Origin: Methanofastidiosum sp.
Lineage (GTDB): Archaea > Methanobacteriota_B > Thermococci > Methanofastidiosales > Methanofastidiosaceae
Length of the DNA: 51,864 nucleotides
Direction: 5' to 3'
Assembly (NCBI GenBank): GCA_020854815.1
Contig: JAHKLW010000004.1
Location: 1 to 51,864, forward strand
The notes beneath the pieces are model-generated. The model was not told the DNA's origin. It saw only the letters and a list, made by a program, of their open reading frames with translations, and ran no database searches. The first letter of the stretch is position 1. The number at the start of each line of letters is the position of its first letter. Both the position numbers and the translations under genes were made by a program. Positions 42,308 through 51,864 of the stretch are shown here, one piece after another.

Positions 42308-43696
42308 ATGATTAAGAAATCCCTGATGCTTCTTATTGCAAATTCCTTCTCCAGAGTTGCAAATTATCTCTTCACTCTTTTCACGGCCAACATCCTTCTA
42401 CTTACAGAGTATGGGCTGCTGTCTGCTATCATGCCTTTTCAGTCATTAATATTAGTTCTTTCGTCATTCGGTATCGCACCATCTGTATCCAGGTTTACAT
42501 CAATCTATGATGCAGAGAATAAAAATCAAAAAATATCTTCTTCTCTGTTTTTTGTACCTATCGGGATTGGCTTATTTATTTTGCTCTTTGTTTTATCTCC
42601 AGTCATAATGAGTTTTTACTCATTGGACATAAGAGAAGGAATTGATGTACCGCTTAAGATAATTCTTCTTGTGATACCTCTTGGTGTGTTATTTTCAGTT
42701 TTCACTGGAATTCTCCTTGGTATCAAAAAGGTAAATTACATGGCAGTTTCAATATTTGCGCTTTCACTCTCTTATTTTTTACTTTCAATGCCACTTTCTT
42801 ACTTCTTTAGAGTTTCAGGCGCCTCTGCAGCACTTGTGGTAGGATATCTAATAGGGATAATAGTTTCGTTTTTATTAGTTCTAAAGAGTGGCGTCAAACT
42901 AACTCTAAAAAGTGAGAATTTTCAGGAATTTAAGAAGATTTTAGTATTTGCAGTCCCGGTATCCATATTCTCTTTAAGCCTTGTACTGCTCTTCAATGCC
43001 GATATTTACATATTGGCCCACTTTTTTGGCCCAAAGACTGTTGGAATCTATGGCATGGCATCACCAACGGCAGGTATTGTCCCCTCATTTGCAATTGCCC
43101 TATCTGCCGTGTTATTGCCTGAACTATCAAAACTAAAATCAATAGAAAAAGACGGGATTAAAAGCATTCTAGTATCACTTAAAGCCTCGTTTAATATTAC
43201 ACTCCCTGTTGCACTTTCACTTTTTGCATTTTCAGCTCCAATAATATATTTTCTCTTTGGAGTCCAAGAAGGAGGATGGGTGCTGAAGCTTCTCTCAGTT
43301 GGTATGCTATTCTATTCTATATTTTATATCGCCTCTACTTCTCTTCAGGCTATGGGAAAACAGTGGACTCCAATGAAGATAACGGTGCTTATAGCTATAA
43401 TAAATGTAATCCTGAACTACCTGCTCATACCTAGGTACAATATAAACGGTGCAGCTTTTGCAACTATGGTATCTTGTATAATTGGTATGGCCCTGATGCT
43501 CAAAAGCTTAAAAATTATGTTTGTTCCTGACAAGAGATTTGTTTTATTTTCAATGGCCATCTTTCTAGCGATGATGATCTTTGAGAGTATAGTTGGATTA
43601 TTTCCATCAAGAACTATGAATCTTATTGTATACGGCGGATTTGGAGCTCCCTTAATTATGAGTTATTTTTACTATCTTAAGAAAAAATGGATATGA
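42308..43696 (+). CDS. Polysaccharide/lipid-linked glycan flippase (MATE/MviN-Wzx superfamily)
   Basis: 462 residues with about 12-14 membrane helices. N-terminal ANSFSRVANYLFTLFTANI, LLTEYGLLSA, and AHFFGPKTVGIYGMASPTAG are typical of polysaccharide biosynthesis/oligosaccharide flippases. The last half shows the second bundle, LLIPRYNINGAAFATMVSCI. It would move lipid-linked sugars across the membrane for glycosylation. No glycosyltransferase is adjacent. It lies 40 bp downstream of the membrane regulator and ends at the stop of the marker operon (convergent). Confidence 0.85.
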   Translation: MIKKSLMLLIANSFSRVANYLFTLFTANILLLTEYGLLSAIMPFQSLILVLSSFGIAPSVSRFTSIYDAENKNQKISSSLFFVPIGIGLFILLFVLSPVIMSFYSLDIREGIDVPLKIILLVIPLGVLFSVFTGILLGIKKVNYMAVSIFALSLSYFLLSMPLSYFFRVSGASAALVVGYLIGIIVSFLLVLKSGVKLTLKSENFQEFKKILVFAVPVSIFSLSLVLLFNADIYILAHFFGPKTVGIYGMASPTAGIVPSFAIALSAVLLPELSKLKSIEKDGIKSILVSLKASFNITLPVALSLFAFSAPIIYFLFGVQEGGWVLKLLSVGMLFYSIFYIASTSLQAMGKQWTPMKITVLIAIINVILNYLLIPRYNINGAAFATMVSCIIGMALMLKSLKIMFVPDKRFVLFSMAIFLAMMIFESIVGLFPSRTMNLIVYGGFGAPLIMSYFYYLKKKWI

Positions 43697-44620
43697 TTAT
43701 AGATTGTTTTTTAATGAATCAAAATAAGATTTTGTAAATATCTTTAGTATTGTAATCCCACTGTAGGGTGACTGATAGATATTAGCATACTCTTCTATCT
43801 TCCTACCATCAAATTCTATGTTCTTTATCTTTTCCTTGAACTGAGCCAATGGCATTTTTACTTTGACACCATCTACATTTAGGACTATAGGGATTGGTGA
43901 AATGATCTTGTCTATGCCCTCAACGTTTTCTTCTAAAATCTTCTTAAGGTATATTGGTTCTAATATCAGAGGATCCTCTTCTATTTCCCTTCTCCTTTTT
44001 TCTACTGCCTTTGAGATTTCACCGACCATGACATCAAATATATCAAGATCAAACTTCTGCCTCAATCTCTGGCTCCTTCTTCCAATGCCGCCGACGTAAT
44101 AATCAAGCCCTTCAATATTAAATTGTTCTGGACCTCCGAGAACAACTACGGGTATATCAATGTCGATAAAGAGATGAGTCTTTTTCATAAGACATCTGCT
44201 AAAGTTTCCCAGAGAATAGACCGCCACATCGGCCTCTTCTATCATCCCCTTTTCTGTGGCAGTTATCTGGTTTATTCTCTGGCCAACTCCTCTTGCAAGC
44301 CCCATGACGTTTGTCACAGCACCGTTCCTTCTGATGTATTCTGATATATCGCACACCGGGTGTGGCAGATGATGCTTTCCAAGAGAAGGTGCTACAATTG
44401 TGACTTCTGAACCTGCAAGTGGAACTTCAACAATTTTTCCCCTTAACTCTTTTGCTTTTTTAACTACAAGCTCATAATCCTCGGCGGGTACAGAAATGAT
44501 TAGAGTAATATCAATTTGGGTAACATTTTTCTGGATTAAAAAACCTCCAAGATCATCTACGAGGTCTTCAAACTCATCTGCCCTATGGAGTCCTCCTTCA
44601 AATAATGCCATCTTAAACAT
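43697..44620 (-). CDS. mmp7: Methanogenesis marker protein 7 (MCR activation complex)
   Basis: 307 residues. HHLPHPVCDISEYIRRNG and RGVGQRINQITATEKGMIEE, followed by VVLGGPEQFNIEGLDYYVGG, mark Mmp7. In Methanococcus maripaludis it is part of the complex with McrC, Mmp17, Mmp3 and component A2 that reduces Ni in F430 of methyl-coenzyme M reductase. The frame is open upstream into mmp17, but ATG 44620 (MFKMALFEGGLHRAD) is preceded by GGTGG and gives no overlap. It is the last gene of the Mmp6-5-15-17-7 operon. Confidence 0.9.
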   Translation of the reverse strand: MFKMALFEGGLHRADEFEDLVDDLGGFLIQKNVTQIDITLIISVPAEDYELVVKKAKELRGKIVEVPLAGSEVTIVAPSLGKHHLPHPVCDISEYIRRNGAVTNVMGLARGVGQRINQITATEKGMIEEADVAVYSLGNFSRCLMKKTHLFIDIDIPVVVLGGPEQFNIEGLDYYVGGIGRRSQRLRQKFDLDIFDVMVGEISKAVEKRRREIEEDPLILEPIYLKKILEENVEGIDKIISPIPIVLNVDGVKVKMPLAQFKEKIKNIEFDGRKIEEYANIYQSPYSGITILKIFTKSYFDSLKNNL

Positions 44621-44630
44621 TGATTTCCAC

Positions 44631-45173
44631 CTAGTCCCTCTCGTGAAACTTTTGAGCAAGTTTTTTGCTTTCTTCTGAAATTGCATTCTCACTTGATGCA
44701 ACTGTTATAGTTTTTTCTGCAGAGAGTATGTATTTGATCCTAGCTGCTTCAGGTAAAACCCTATTGATTGCTTCTTGAACGTTTTTCTTCAAATCCTCTG
44801 TAGGGTAGTAGACGACTTCAGACTTTATCTTATTGAAGATATCAGTCGGGATTTTAATCTCAGTTCTATCGGCCTGCTCTACCCCTTCTTTAGAGATGGC
44901 CCATAATAATGATAATATCTTTGGAACGTAAAACTCATCCTCTACAGACAGTGATTCTTTTTCTGCGTTGTAGATGGCAACGTCCTCTATCCTCAAAGGT
45001 TCAAGAATTTTTTTTATCCTAATTGATGTTATGAAAACAAAATTTTCAGTATCGCCATAGAAGTATACCTTTTCTATGCTTCTTCGTATCTCAAATTCTC
45101 TCATTATATCATTTATTAAAGTGACATAACCTTGAGATTCCTTCTCTGGCAATCCTTCAACTATTATTTCCAT
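44631..45173 (-). CDS. mmp17: Methanogenesis marker protein 17 (MCR activation complex)
   Basis: 180 residues. EIIVEGLPEKESQGYVTLIND, RRSIEKVYFYGDTENFVFIT and VYYPTEDLKKNVQEAINRVLP are recognisable as Mmp17, a subunit of the MCR activation complex. ATG 45173 is taken as the start: AGGAGATAAGTTA lies immediately upstream, whereas the open frame to 45227 would overlap mmp15. Gap to mmp15 is 13 bp, and to mmp7 is 10 bp, so translation of this trio is probably coupled. Confidence 0.88.
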   Translation of the reverse strand: MEIIVEGLPEKESQGYVTLINDIMREFEIRRSIEKVYFYGDTENFVFITSIRIKKILEPLRIEDVAIYNAEKESLSVEDEFYVPKILSLLWAISKEGVEQADRTEIKIPTDIFNKIKSEVVYYPTEDLKKNVQEAINRVLPEAARIKYILSAEKTITVASSENAISEESKKLAQKFHERD

Positions 45174-45186
45174 TAACTTATCTCCT

Positions 45187-46404
45187 TTAGATAAATCCTG
45201 AGCAGAGTAAGGCTCCTCCGACTGCACCGATATATTGAGAGTTTTGTGGAACTAAAGGTTCTGTTTTTAAGATATCGCCTACCGCCCTTACAAGTCCTTT
45301 TAGAAGTGAGGTACCACCTACTTGAATCACTGGAAACCTTACATCAATTTCCTGAAGCTGCTGCTGATAAATCTGTTCGGCAACGCTTCTGCATGCTGCT
45401 GCTGCAACGTCTTCTTTAGTATATCCTTCAGCTAAAGCAGAAACCAATCCCTGGATTCCAAAAACTGTACAGTAGCTATTCATTGGTACCTTGTGAAGCT
45501 CTCCTTTTGCTGCCATATCCCCAAACTCGCCGATTTCAATTCCAAGTCTCTTTGCAGTAGTTTCTAGAAATCTCCCAGATGCCCCAGCACATATCCCTCC
45601 CATTGTAAAGCTATCGGGTATACCATCCATGACAGTTATTGCCTTATTGTCCATTCCACCTATATCAAGGATTGTGGCTTCTCCTTTCTGTTTATCCGCA
45701 AGAAAAACTGCGCCTTTTGAGTTTACAGTCAATTCTTCCTGGACAAGTTTTGCCTTGTAGTGATGTCCTAAGGTATATCTGCCGTAACCAGTTGTCCCGA
45801 TTGATTCGATATCTTTAAGATCCACCTTAGCTTCCTTAAGGGCCTCTGATACTACCTTCTCGGCTGACTCTATCACTGTTGTTGTCGGACTCCAGTATTT
45901 ACCTATAATCTTATTATCTTGCATTATCACTGCTTTTGTTGTAGCTGAGCCTGAATCAATGCCCATTGTCAAGCCTACTTGCCTTTCTCTCCCGAGTAGA
46001 TCTTTTCTTTTTACAATTGTCACAAGCGCTTCCATTCTTGTAAGAAGAACACTTGCCTTAGTATTTTCAGTGAATGAATACATGACGACTGGAAGTTTTG
46101 TGTGCCTCTGAAGATATCTCCTTATCTCATTTCGGATTAAAGCACCTTCTGCACATCTAAAACATGTGGCTATCAATACAGCATCTGCTTCAAATGTTTT
46201 ATCTGCTAGTGCTTTTGCCCTCGCAACCATGAGTTTTAATCCAGCACTTACAGGGTTGAATCCAAATTCTTCAACTGCCTCATCAAAATCAATGTCGACA
46301 TCAGGAAAAACTATCTTGGCCCCTACTGTTTCTGCAGCTTTTTCAATTTCTTTTTGGATACCACTGTAATCATTACCACATGAAAGCTGAGCTATTTTAA
46401 TCAT
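45187..46404 (-). CDS. mmp15: Methanogenesis marker protein 15, BcrA/HgdC-like Fe-S ATPase
   Basis: 405 residues. The N-terminal 130 residues form a marker-specific domain. The rest is an ASKHA ATPase of the BcrAD/BadFG type: [42 protein letters not shown] and [13 protein letters not shown]. The Cys of that motif and the Cys in YCTVFGIQ are where 2-hydroxyacyl-CoA dehydratase activators hold a [4Fe-4S] cluster between subunits. So an ATP-driven electron-transfer role is likely. It is tightly coupled: it overlaps mmp5 by 4 bp (ATGA) and lies 13 bp before mmp17. Confidence 0.9.
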
Positions 46405-46835
46405 TTTAGACCCTCCAAGAACCCTTTAATTCTTGCAATGAAATCTTCCACTTCTTCCTCATTTGTAGGATAGTCAAGTTCTAGAGTTGGAACTTTTCTC
46501 TGTTTGATGAGATAAATAGTAAGCTCATTTGTCCTGGCGCATGCCATGCACCCAAATGTAGATGGAAAGTTATTGACAATAATAGCAGCTTCTGCCTCAT
46601 CAATCAATGGTCCAAACATGGCAAGTCTGCCCCTGACGCCAGATGGAACTTCTATGGCGGCATACTTTAATCCAATTTTTACATCTATTTCAGTTATATT
46701 CATTGGTGGAGAGTCAAGTTCTGGATCATTAACTCTTCTATCTATCTCTTTTGCTAGAGCTAGGGGAGTGTGACCAAACCTTTCAACTAAATCCTGCAAT
46801 ATCATGCTGTTTGGGGGATAAATAAAAACTTTCAT
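46401..46835 (-). CDS. mmp5: Methanogenesis marker protein 5
   Basis: 144 residues beginning [20 protein letters not shown], the signature of Mmp5. A small Cys motif, [13 protein letters not shown], may bind metal. Function is unknown; the family is found only in methanogens (and relatives). AAGGTG precedes ATG 46835, 2 bp beyond the mmp6 stop. The stop overlaps the mmp15 start by 4 bp, giving a tight operon. Confidence 0.85.
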
Positions 46836-46837
46836 CG

Positions 46838-47248
46838 TTACACCTTTTTCTTAATAGCCTTCTTCAGTACATCTACATCTACAGGTTTTTTCTTCTTTTT
46901 ATCTATGGTTTTAAATCTTCCTTCTTTTAAAACCTTGGAGATCAGAGGTAATAATTTGTACTCTTCTTGTAAAAAATAATAACCGGGCCTTGCTCCGCCA
47001 CCTCTTGTAGCCCTACATCTTCTTTCATCTCCTATTGGATAAGCTCGATGCTTTGAAAATATATCTGCGTTAAATTTCTCCCTTATTTTTAGTGTGACAT
47101 TCTCAACAACGTCGTCGTCGCCTTCTACCATGATACCATAACAGGTATCTTTGATGTTCAAAGTCTTCCCAAGACTTACAATATAGTTAATTACTGTTTG
47201 AGGAGTTAGTGATGAGGTATCAGCGATAACAAACATTCTTGTTTTCAT
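46838..47248 (-). CDS. mmp6: Methanogenesis marker protein 6
   Basis: 136 residues. [20 protein letters not shown] and [21 protein letters not shown] mark Mmp6; a Lys-rich tail follows. It is the first gene of the marker operon. The frame is open to 47272, but ATG 47248 lies about 28 bp from a TATA-like CTCTTTTATT (47271-47280, minus strand), consistent with a leaderless start. Function unknown, confined to methanogens. Confidence 0.85.
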
Positions 47249-48279: not shown

Positions 48280-50235
48280 TTATTTTTTAATTTGTAAAAG
48301 TTTAGCATTAATAGCGACAATCACTGTGCTAAGAGACATCAATGCTGCGCCAACTGCAGGTGAAATTAGAATCCCCTGATTGTAGAGTATTCCAGCTGCT
48401 AAAGGTATGGCAATGACATTATATCCGGTAGCCCAAAATAAATTTTGTAACATTTTGTTGTGTGTAGCTTTGCCAAATTCGATTAAGGTAACTATGTCAT
48501 CGGGGTCACTGTTTACTAATACTATATCAGCTGTTTCGGCGGCAACATCTGTCCCAGAGCCTATAGCAATCCCTATATCTGATTCAGCTAAGGCTGGCGC
48601 ATCATTAACTCCATCGCCAGTCATTGCAACAAACTCATTATTCTTTTGAAGCTCTTTTATTTTCTGCTGTTTTTGGTGGGGCAAAACTTGTGAAAAATAA
48701 CCGTCCAATCCAAGTTCATTTGAAACTTCTTTGGCTGTTTCTTCATTATCTCCGGTGAGCATCCAGCACTTTATATTCATTTTATGTAAAGTATCGATTG
48801 CATTTTTTGATTGTTTTCGTATTTTATCGTTCAAAGAAATACTCCCTAGGAGCTTAGAATCTTCTAGGATATATACTGTTGTTCCAACACTATTAGTTTT
48901 AGGAAAGATGATATTGTTTCTTTCTAGGTATCCCGGGCTTACTACTCTAATATTTTTGCCATCTATAATTCCTGCTATGCCCTCCCCCCTCATGTTCTTA
49001 AAGTCCTTTACTTCAATCAATTCGATATTCATTTCTTTGGCCCTATCAGTTATGGCTTTCGCTATGGGATGTTCAGAAGAAGATTCGAGAGATGCTGAAA
49101 TTTTCATCAAATATTTCTCATCAATATTTTTGTATAATATTTGCACAAAAGATACCCCAAATTTACCTTCGGTTAAAGTTCCTGTTTTATCAAATACTAT
49201 TGTGGTTATTTTTCTAGCATTTTCAAAAGCGGTCCTATTTCTTATAAGCAATCCATTTTTTGCAGATAAAGAAGTGGAAATTGCAACTACAAGTGGAATT
49301 GCCAGCCCCAGTGCATGAGGGCATGTTATTACCATGACCGTTGCCATCCTTTCAATGGCAAAAGATAAATCGCCTTTTAATATCATCCAACTGGCAAAAG
49401 TAAAAACTCCAACTGAGATGCCGATAAGGGTTAATCCAAATGCGGCCTTATCTGCAAGATTTTGTGTCCTTGATTTTTGTTCCTGTGCCTCCTTTACTAG
49501 TTTAATAACCTTCGCAAGGTATGAATCTTCGCCAGTTCTTTCAACTCTAAGATCAAATGCTGCGTTTCCGTTTATCGACCCCCCGACTAGAGTATCACCT
49601 GCTTTTTTCTTAACAGGCTTTGATTCGCCAGTTAGCATTGATTCGTCGACATGACCCTCTCCTTCGACTATAACCCCATCGGAAGGAATTTTTTCACCAG
49701 GCTTTATTAGAATAATATCTCCTTTTTTCAATTCGCTGATTTCGATGTCTCTTATGCCCTTATCGCCTTTTAGATGCGCAGTGTTAGGCAACAGTTCAAC
49801 AAGTTTTTCGAGTGCCTTTGATGCGCCCATTATAGAGCGCATCTCTATCCAGTGCCCTGCAAGCATTACATCAATTAAGGTTGCAAGTTCCCAAAAGAAG
49901 GTCATTCCCTCTAATCCAAAAACTACGGCAGTGCTGTACGCATAGGCAACCGTAATAGCTACAGCAATTAAAACCATCATTCCCGGTTTTCTCTCTTTTA
50001 GTTCCTCTTTGAATCCTTTTAGAAAAGGATATCCGCAATAGAAAAATATTACAGAGGAAATAAGAAATGAAATATAATTATCGTATCTAAAAGTCAATGA
50101 TACGCCTAAAAGCCCCTGTATAGTTGGAGATAGAATCAAAATAGGAACAGTCAAGGTCAGTGATATCCAAAGCCTCTTTTTAAAATCGTCCAACATCATT
50201 TTATGATGATCATGTTTATGTGGATGGTTGTTCAT
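48280..50235 (-). CDS. copB: Copper-exporting P1B-type ATPase, CopB-like (CPH)
   Basis: 651 residues. The N-terminus is His-rich (NNHPHKHDHHKMM). The transmembrane metal motif is CPH (Cys305 in VITCPHALG), the P1B-3/CopB form for Cu/Ag. LTGESKPV, phosphorylation motif DKTGTLTEG and hinge TGDGVNDAPAL are all present. ATG 50235 follows AGAGGGG, while the open frame to 50313 would add an unrelated leader overlapping the upstream gene. It is probably co-transcribed with the Met/His-rich SHOCT protein upstream. Confidence 0.92.
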   Translation of the reverse strand: MNNHPHKHDHHKMMLDDFKKRLWISLTLTVPILILSPTIQGLLGVSLTFRYDNYISFLISSVIFFYCGYPFLKGFKEELKERKPGMMVLIAVAITVAYAYSTAVVFGLEGMTFFWELATLIDVMLAGHWIEMRSIMGASKALEKLVELLPNTAHLKGDKGIRDIEISELKKGDIILIKPGEKIPSDGVIVEGEGHVDESMLTGESKPVKKKAGDTLVGGSINGNAAFDLRVERTGEDSYLAKVIKLVKEAQEQKSRTQNLADKAAFGLTLIGISVGVFTFASWMILKGDLSFAIERMATVMVITCPHALGLAIPLVVAISTSLSAKNGLLIRNRTAFENARKITTIVFDKTGTLTEGKFGVSFVQILYKNIDEKYLMKISASLESSSEHPIAKAITDRAKEMNIELIEVKDFKNMRGEGIAGIIDGKNIRVVSPGYLERNNIIFPKTNSVGTTVYILEDSKLLGSISLNDKIRKQSKNAIDTLHKMNIKCWMLTGDNEETAKEVSNELGLDGYFSQVLPHQKQQKIKELQKNNEFVAMTGDGVNDAPALAESDIGIAIGSGTDVAAETADIVLVNSDPDDIVTLIEFGKATHNKMLQNLFWATGYNVIAIPLAAGILYNQGILISPAVGAALMSLSTVIVAINAKLLQIKK

Positions 50236-50281
50236 AGCCCCTCTTTTTAAAGTAAAAATAAATTTATAGTTTTTTGATATG

Positions 50282-50866
50282 TTAACTTTCCAAATCCTTT
50301 CTAGTTTTCTCAAACTCGGCCTTAGTTATTTCTCCTTTGGCGTATCTTTCTTTTAGCAATTTTATGGTGTTGTCTTCCATTTCTTTTTCTGACCCTTTCT
50401 TTTGAGCCAGTAAGAAAACTAGTACTATTATGAGTATGGCTATTAAAGCAACTATTCCAAAGCCTACGGCGCCAAATCCCCAGAAGAAATGACCATCTCC
50501 AGGATACATCATGTGCCCCCAATTATTCTCTCCCATCATGCCTGGCCCCATTCCTCTAGTCGGGAGAATCTCCGTTTGAAGATACTGGCTGTAAAATCTT
50601 TTGCCCATGTTTATGTGGGCAATTCTAAGACTTTCAGAACCTTCACCGCCCATCATCTCGTCCATGTACTCGTGATCTTCCTCCAACATTAGTTCCATAA
50701 AGTAATCTCCAAGGATTTCAAATTGGTCATCAGTTATCTGAGCATAAGGTATTTTCTGTTCTAAGATTTCTATAGCTTCTGAGAAATCTTCATGCGAGTC
50801 TGAATCAGCAATTACAAATGAAAGTGTCAATAAAACTATTAAACTAGCTAAGATTAGTTTCTTCAT
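50282..50866 (-). CDS. Secreted Met/His-rich protein with membrane helix and SHOCT domain
   Basis: 194 residues. A signal peptide (KKLILASLIVLLTLSFVIA) is followed by an ectodomain with HEYMDEMMGG and GMGPGMMGENNWGHMMYPG, a pattern of Met and His typical of copper-binding regions. A transmembrane helix (about 130-150) follows, and the C-terminal 35 residues are a SHOCT module (ERYAKGEITKAEFEKTRKDL). Together with copB 47 bp downstream, the protein likely contributes to copper sensing or handling. A direct biochemical role is not established. Confidence 0.75.
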   Translation of the reverse strand: MKKLILASLIVLLTLSFVIADSDSHEDFSEAIEILEQKIPYAQITDDQFEILGDYFMELMLEEDHEYMDEMMGGEGSESLRIAHINMGKRFYSQYLQTEILPTRGMGPGMMGENNWGHMMYPGDGHFFWGFGAVGFGIVALIAILIIVLVFLLAQKKGSEKEMEDNTIKLLKERYAKGEITKAEFEKTRKDLES

Positions 50867-51038: not shown

Positions 51039-51864
51039 TTAACCAAACCTGACCCTATCAATCTTCTCTTTAATCGCATCAATCACGATTGGATCGTCAT
51101 TCCACGCCCCGAGATTAATAACATCAATACAATTTGGCACTTCACATTTAGAAACAAGCTCAGGAAGATCACACATGCTATGTATACTATCTGCACTAAT
51201 TGCAGCTGAAAAGTAAAATATCTTCTCAACTCCATTTTGTACTAATTTTTGAACTGCCTCTGATGTACAAGGCTCTCTAAACTCCATCCATGCAAGATCT
51301 AAATTCTTACGGTCGTATCCATCTTTAACAAATAATTCTAAAACATCTGTTCTAAATTTTATCTCCTGCTCTGTTTCTGTCGGCCATTCAATGTCCCACT
51401 CTTTTGGCTGCCCGTGACCAACAAGCAAAACTCCAACTTTTTTCTTATCAGCTTTTCCAAGATTTTTCTTTACTCTTTCGATGAACATGCCCTGCAAAGT
51501 CTTTGAATCCCAAAGTGGACCTGTAAATGCAATTGAAACTCCGTAATCATCAAAATTAATTTTTCTAACTAACTCCTTACCTTCAGCTGTATGATTTGAA
51601 ATGGTCAAGAATATCTCACTTACTATTATTCTGCTTGCCCCTTCATTTAATGCAGTTATAACAGCAGCGTCTGGTCTTGGCTCATCCTCTAAAAATGATA
51701 GATAAAATTTAGTCTTCTTATCCCCTTCTTTTCTAAATTTCTCTTCAAGCGATTTCATCATCTTTTCATGCGTTTTCTTATGCTGACTAAAACCAACATG
51801 GATATACTTTTTCCTCAACATATAAAGAAAAATTGGCCTAATCAAAAGTGGGATAAACTTAATC
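51039..51864 (-). CDS. Ferrochelatase/CbiX-like chelatase, 5' end beyond window
   Basis: The frame is open to the right edge (codons before the possible TTG 51845 continue as IKFIPLLIRP), so the true start may lie outside. At least 268 residues. YIHVGFSQHKKTHEKMM resembles the start of chelatases, LLVGHGQPKEWDIEW and FYFSAAISADSIHSMCDLP resemble the second half with catalytic His residues, and ASRIIVSEIFLT and INLGAWNDDPIV complete a two-domain class II chelatase. It may act on a tetrapyrrole (F430, cobalamin or haem-like). The substrate metal is not known. Confidence 0.65.
   Translation of the reverse strand, partial: IKFIPLLIRPIFLYMLRKKYIHVGFSQHKKTHEKMMKSLEEKFRKEGDKKTKFYLSFLEDEPRPDAAVITALNEGASRIIVSEIFLTISNHTAEGKELVRKINFDDYGVSIAFTGPLWDSKTLQGMFIERVKKNLGKADKKKVGVLLVGHGQPKEWDIEWPTETEQEIKFRTDVLELFVKDGYDRKNLDLAWMEFREPCTSEAVQKLVQNGVEKIFYFSAAISADSIHSMCDLPELVSKCEVPNCIDVINLGAWNDDPIVIDAIKEKIDRVRFG

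Follow-up and report, generated by a model that had tools for sequence, protein, structure and literature searches.

A conserved mmp6-mmp5-mmp15-mmp17-mmp7 operon of Candidatus Methanofastidiosum and a possible ATP-driven electron donor for the activation of methyl-coenzyme M reductase

The closest described system is the activation complex of methyl-coenzyme M reductase (MCR), the structure of which was solved in 2025 (PMC12176620; PDB 8s7v, 8s7x and 9h1l). In M. maripaludis, three [8Fe-9S-C] L-clusters in McrC and Mmp7 were shown to form an electron chain to F430, and FeSIII, the surface L-cluster of the complex, is located at the interface of Mmp7 and Mmp17 (PMC12176620). The purified complex requires Ti(III) citrate, DTT fails as a substitute, and the source of the very low potential for the reduction of F430 to Ni(I) is named as an open question (PMC12176620). 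Further clustered Mmp proteins are presumably required for physiological activation; their genes are clustered and followed by nifB in Methanothermobacter marburgensis and clustered with A2 in Methanosarcina (PMC12176620). Already in 2014, 13 of the 15 methanogen-wide markers had been located within approximately 16 kb together with mcr in Methanomassiliicoccales and had been proposed to serve MCR, among them a 'CoA-substrate-specific enzyme activase', which is Mmp15 (PMC4153887).

In the present study, a marker operon in a DNA stretch of 51,864 nucleotides from a genome of Candidatus Methanofastidiosum (the window) was analyzed. The operon and the functional guess attached to it by the initial annotation are largely known, including the assignment of Mmp7 and Mmp17 to the MCR activation complex (PMC12176620), and only the arrangements in Methanofastidiosum and its sister family appear to be additions to the gene-order record. 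The statement that Mmp5, Mmp6 and Mmp15 have no defined role needs a qualifier, as Mmp15 can be recognised as an activase of the HgdC type and the markers were linked to MCR in 2014 (PMC4153887) and to its activation in 2025 (PMC12176620). New here are the domain assignments of Mmp5 and of the N-terminal domain of Mmp15 (Mmp15N) and a testable model for the two proteins as electron donor, an earlier statement of which was not found in the literature searched, most subscription journals being outside its coverage.

The previously annotated marker order mmp6-mmp5-mmp15-mmp17-mmp7 proved exact to the base: the operon extends from 47248 to 43697 on the minus strand and consists of five stop-free open reading frames. 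Marker identities were assigned with NCBIfam models and their curated cut-offs, which all five proteins exceed. The first gene, mmp6 (46838..47248, minus strand, as are all that follow), encodes a DUF2102 protein of 136 aa (TIGR03272, 132.7 bits versus a cut-off of 125.95; PF09875) and is separated by 2 bp from mmp5 (46401..46835), which encodes a DUF2112 protein of 144 aa (TIGR03271, 227.3 bits). The next gene, mmp15 (45187..46404), overlaps mmp5 by 4 bp (ATGA) and encodes a protein of 405 aa with an N-domain and an HgdC-like ASKHA ATPase (TIGR03286, 701.3 bits). It is followed after 13 bp by mmp17 (44631..45173; DUF2113, 180 aa; TIGR03291, 101.7 bits), the gene of an MCR activation complex subunit, and after another 10 bp by mmp7 (43697..44620; 307 aa; TIGR03274, 352.7 bits), the gene of the McrC-like L-cluster subunit. 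The spacings reported earlier, gaps of 2 to 13 bp, agree with those read from the sequence (+2, -4, +13 and +10 bp), but the plural "4-bp overlaps" does not, the Mmp5/Mmp15 junction being the sole overlap of the operon. G-rich Shine-Dalgarno-like stretches are located ahead of the start codons of Mmp5, Mmp15, Mmp17 and Mmp7, and none was seen before the start of Mmp6, the first gene. Upstream, the operon is divergent from a gene for a UbiA-type prenyltransferase. At the other end, a flippase-like gene (42308-43696, plus strand) is convergent with mmp7, which ends at 43697, so that the two stop codons abut with zero gap. Elsewhere in the window, a copper-type P-ATPase reading frame (48280-50866, minus strand) overlaps, with its longest start, the gene of a small, secreted-looking His/Met-rich protein, and a 268-aa ferrochelatase/CbiX-like protein (51039-51845, minus strand), encoded approximately 4 kb from the operon, is weakly matched by the model of the F430 nickelochelatase CfbA (43.8 bits versus a cut-off of 120).

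McrC, Mmp3 and A2, noted at the outset as absent from the window, are all encoded on other contigs of the same genome, which has a size of 1.95 Mb and is 96% complete. McrC was found on contig C2, Mmp3 on contig C29 and A2 (AtwA) as two paralogues on contigs C78 (27137-28699) and C31 (22254-23813), with scores of approximately 750 and 614 bits in the order listed; McrA is encoded on contig C78 as well, approximately 4 kb from one A2 paralogue. A NifB-like protein on contig C94 remains below the cut-off of the nifB model because the match spans the radical-SAM part only; the same holds for several other methanogens in that search. For the L-clusters, seven ligand residues listed in PMC12176620 were checked in Mmp7 and McrC. 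The Mmp7 ligands H84, C90 and C143 are kept in the alignment to chain H of 8s7v (E 5e-76), and the McrC ligands C12, H49, C55 and H118 all fall on matching residues of the PDB chain when an offset of 36 is applied to the numbering, that chain being longer at its N-terminus. DUF2098, a co-purified member of the activation complex in M. maripaludis, was not found in the 7 Methanofastidiosum genomes tested for it and DUF2111 was not found in 10; the sister family of Methanofastidiosum carries both. The genome thus holds what characterizes an MCR activation gene cluster, namely orthologues of Mmp7 and Mmp17 with conserved ligands, together with McrC, Mmp3, A2 and MCR. The sequences support the view of the locus as the Methanofastidiosum version of a conserved gene set predicted to build and run the MCR activation complex.

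Gene order was compared across methanogens in three phyla, the sample being drawn from Methanofastidiosum, its sister family, Methanomassiliicoccales and Methanobacteriota, and the core order was found to be conserved in all three phyla. Among the loci with enough flank, mmp5 is located directly upstream of mmp15 in 98 of 99 and mmp17 directly downstream of it in 96 of 98, counts in which loci inside one group are non-independent and the groups diverged long ago and have different flanks. In Methanofastidiosum the run comprises the five genes alone. The sister family has mmp6-DUF2111-mmp5-mmp15-mmp17-mmp7-mmp3-mcrB-mcrD-mcrG-mcrA, Methanomassiliicoccales have A2-mcrC-mmp3-mmp6-mmp5-mmp15-mmp17-mmp7, often 1-3 kb from mcrA, and Methanobacteriota have mmp3-mmp6-(DUF2111)-mmp5-mmp15-mmp17-nifB with mmp7 elsewhere. 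Two apparent fusions, Mmp6-Mmp5 (L093) and Mmp3-Mmp6 (L077), would have directly indicated that the fused proteins are partners, but both contain stretches of X left by scaffold gaps and were discarded. True Mmp15 and Mmp7 have an identical distribution over 115 genomes of the phylum of Methanofastidiosum (14 with both, 101 with neither). The linkage of the mmp genes is far above chance, and gene order and presence pattern exclude that Mmp5, Mmp6 and Mmp15 never co-occur with Mmp7 and Mmp17. The suggestion of the initial annotation that the former act together with the latter is supported by the order in three phyla, by the runs with A2, mcrC, mmp3, nifB or mcrBDGA and by the matched presence of Mmp15 and Mmp7.

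Mmp15 is a two-part protein with an N-domain (residues 1 to approximately 142) and an HgdC-like ASKHA ATPase (approximately residues 145-405). The best structure match of the C-terminal half is 1hux_A (E 2e-21, TM-score 0.92 to the target), and the BcrAD_BadFG family PF01869 matches with 227.8 bits. C272 and C312 align with the ligand cysteines of the HgdC [4Fe-4S] cluster and are conserved without exception among 60 relatives; by sequence, this half is an HgdC-type ATPase with both predicted [4Fe-4S] cysteines. BcrAD_BadFG is the only Pfam family assigned, PF06050 (HGD-D) giving no match to Mmp15. Nor was any PF06050 dehydratase found over the cut-off in the same genome or in the other Methanofastidiosum genomes tested, matches above it being confined to two genomes from a different family of the order. 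Mmp15 is therefore an activase without the usual partner in its genome, and for this reason it was not filed as a dehydratase activase. At two loci in the other family of the order (L043 and L044; genomes G019 and G020), an HgdC-like activase gene lies beside genes of two HgdB-like dehydratase subunits; McrA and markers 3, 7 or 15 were not found in these lineages.

The N-domain of Mmp15 has three cysteines, C9, C81 and C84, that are invariant, and is matched by a dehydratase/DCCP profile at the C-terminal cluster domain of that profile (prob 84, P 7e-6). The alignment places C84 on a conserved dehydratase cysteine, by count C346 of 3o3m_A, which we take to be a cluster ligand. The same cluster domain was matched by Mmp5 (prob 54, P 1e-4), in which C96 and C99 are invariant within an FGCxxC motif. 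In the forward controls, no value exceeded 0.4% among 11 other profiles from the loci or 1.8% among 70 flanking-gene profiles; the latter include antisense reading frames and test chance similarity rather more than fold mimicry, the 11 same-locus profiles being the fairer comparison. The reciprocal profile controls peak at 5.8%. A resemblance of the end of Mmp5 to that of HgdB-like dehydratases had been predicted ahead of the fold search from its pattern (strand, cysteines, helix, 'P.L.' and 'R...FLE'). The eight top-ranking PDB structures in the fold search with the AlphaFold model of Mmp5 (pLDDT 85) include six that are benzoyl-CoA reductase (BzdN), 2-hydroxyisocaproyl-CoA dehydratase or DCCP (prob 0.75-0.96), with modest scores (E 0.007-0.08, TMq 0.41-0.47). 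Strands and helices follow each other in a similar order in the models of Mmp5 and Mmp15N, and in both the CxxC lies between the third main strand and a long helix. A search of PDB sequences with the Mmp5 profile gave nothing useful (best E 0.96), and DUF2112 is the only Pfam match of Mmp5, PF06050 giving none, so neither Mmp5 nor Mmp15N was filed as a member of the HgdB/DCCP acceptor family. Taken together, sequence profiles and models point to a remote relationship of Mmp15N and Mmp5 to the C-terminal domain in which 2-hydroxyacyl-CoA dehydratases and double-cubane proteins hold their cluster, and the conserved CxxC motifs of Mmp15N and Mmp5 may likewise bind one. A weak profile similarity of Mmp5 to the McrC-like part of Mmp7 was also observed (prob 16), above the other control pairs in the same comparison. 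Mmp6, whose two invariant cysteines occur in 60 of 60 relatives, is probably an accessory protein.

In the known systems, the dimeric activase carries a single [4Fe-4S] cluster, from which ATP hydrolysis drives an electron onto the cluster of the dehydratase. The combination of the HgdC-type Mmp15 with dehydratase-like Mmp15N and Mmp5 in a genome without a dehydratase makes Mmp5/Mmp15 a candidate for supplying the activation complex, at the expense of ATP, with low-potential electrons, a reading that, with partnership, cluster content and electron direction as we infer them, we hold at slightly short of even. Together, Mmp15 and Mmp5 would act as an archerase-type reductase powered by ATP, in which the HgdC-like half of Mmp15 would dimerise around the [4Fe-4S] cluster at C272/C312 and accept an electron from ferredoxin. 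The candidate acceptor would comprise two dehydratase-like domains, that within the Mmp15 chain and that encoded by the adjoining mmp5, and ATP hydrolysis would pass the electron to a cluster held jointly by the HgdB-like Mmp15N and Mmp5. From there it may reach FeSIII at the Mmp7/Mmp17 interface, a path proposed because mmp17 adjoins mmp15 and its product is located at that interface. Mmp7 and Mmp17, together with McrC, Mmp3 and A2 encoded elsewhere, would form the L-cluster chain that feeds electrons to F430. The putative complete path would then be ferredoxin, Mmp15 [4Fe-4S] cluster, Mmp15N/Mmp5 cluster, FeSIII, FeSII, FeSI and F430, with the reductase supplying a potential below the reach of ferredoxin. 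More tentatively, Mmp5/Mmp15 may represent a previously undescribed type of archerase in which one acceptor domain shares a chain with the activase and the second is a small protein of its own, and which feeds ATP-energised electrons into the L-cluster chain and thereby determines the Ni(I) state of F430 in methanogens.

In favor of an electron donor, we count the conserved mmp5-mmp15-mmp17 order and the runs with A2-mcrC-mmp3, nifB or mmp3-mcrBDGA. Furthermore, the need for Ti(III) citrate, the failure of DTT and the presumed need for further Mmp proteins (PMC12176620) describe a gap which such a donor would fill. Against it stands that Mmp5, Mmp6 and Mmp15 were not among the proteins reported from the co-purification with tagged McrC, so that a transient contact would be required, and that an ATP dependence is already provided by A2. 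The modest fold scores of Mmp5 and the lack of a PF06050 match to Mmp5 or Mmp15N argue in the same direction.

The chief rival of the electron donor is a role in cluster supply, with Mmp15 as a NifH-like ATPase that would deliver or insert NifB-made L-clusters into McrC and Mmp7 and with Mmp5 and Mmp6 as carrier or scaffold. Three L-clusters have to be installed in these two proteins, nifB is the last gene of the mmp run at 20 of the 22 loci from Methanobacteriota and is present in the genome studied here, and Mmp5, Mmp6 and Mmp15 all have invariant cysteines. However, in Methanofastidiosum, its sister family and Methanomassiliicoccales nifB is not a neighbor of mmp15, and the HgdC/HgdB pairing in other systems transfers electrons, not clusters, and we consider this explanation rather unlikely. 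By analogy with NifH, an Mmp15-type ATPase could do both jobs. Less probable again is that Mmp5, Mmp6 and Mmp15 serve MCR otherwise, by F430 insertion, modification or assembly chaperoning, and that co-transcription indicates only a shared target. Such a role would agree with the linkage to MCR as a whole, the genes adjoining mcrBDGA in the sister family and being near it in Methanomassiliicoccales, but mmp5-mmp15 is positioned immediately beside mmp17, the gene of an activation-complex-specific subunit, in three phyla. An incidental grouping unlinked to MCR activation, for which no supporting observation was found, is hardly credible in view of the order conserved in three phyla and the exactly matching distribution of Mmp15 and Mmp7.

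If Mmp5/Mmp15 is indeed an ATP-driven donor, the question of low-potential F430 reduction becomes testable by the addition of two small proteins to the existing assay, and targets would be named for methane control and for efforts to produce active MCR in other hosts.

In comparison with known systems, the locus resembles the MCR activation complex (8s7v, 8s7x and 9h1l) in that Mmp7 and Mmp17 are encoded in the operon, McrC, Mmp3 and A2 are encoded in the genome and the ligands are kept; it differs in that the solved complex is without Mmp5, Mmp6 and Mmp15 and DUF2098 was not found in the 7 tested Methanofastidiosum genomes. With MTBMA_c04360-c04410 plus nifB of M. marburgensis (PMC12176620) and with the 16-kb cluster of Methanomassiliicoccales (PMC4153887) it shares the marker set and the mmp6-5-15-17 core order, whereas the Methanofastidiosum run is limited to five genes, without adjoining mmp3, nifB, mcrC, A2 or DUF2111. 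Like HgdC, the 2-hydroxyacyl-CoA dehydratase activase (1hux and 4eht), the C-terminal half of Mmp15 has an ASKHA fold and the two cysteines for the cluster, and Mmp15N and Mmp5 appear remotely similar to the acceptor cluster domain of the dehydratases and of DCCP:DCCP-R (6eno and 7yyl). Unlike in the HgdC and DCCP:DCCP-R systems, in this genome without a PF06050 protein Mmp15 unites the activase and one acceptor-like domain in a single chain, and the second such domain is the separate, 144-aa Mmp5.
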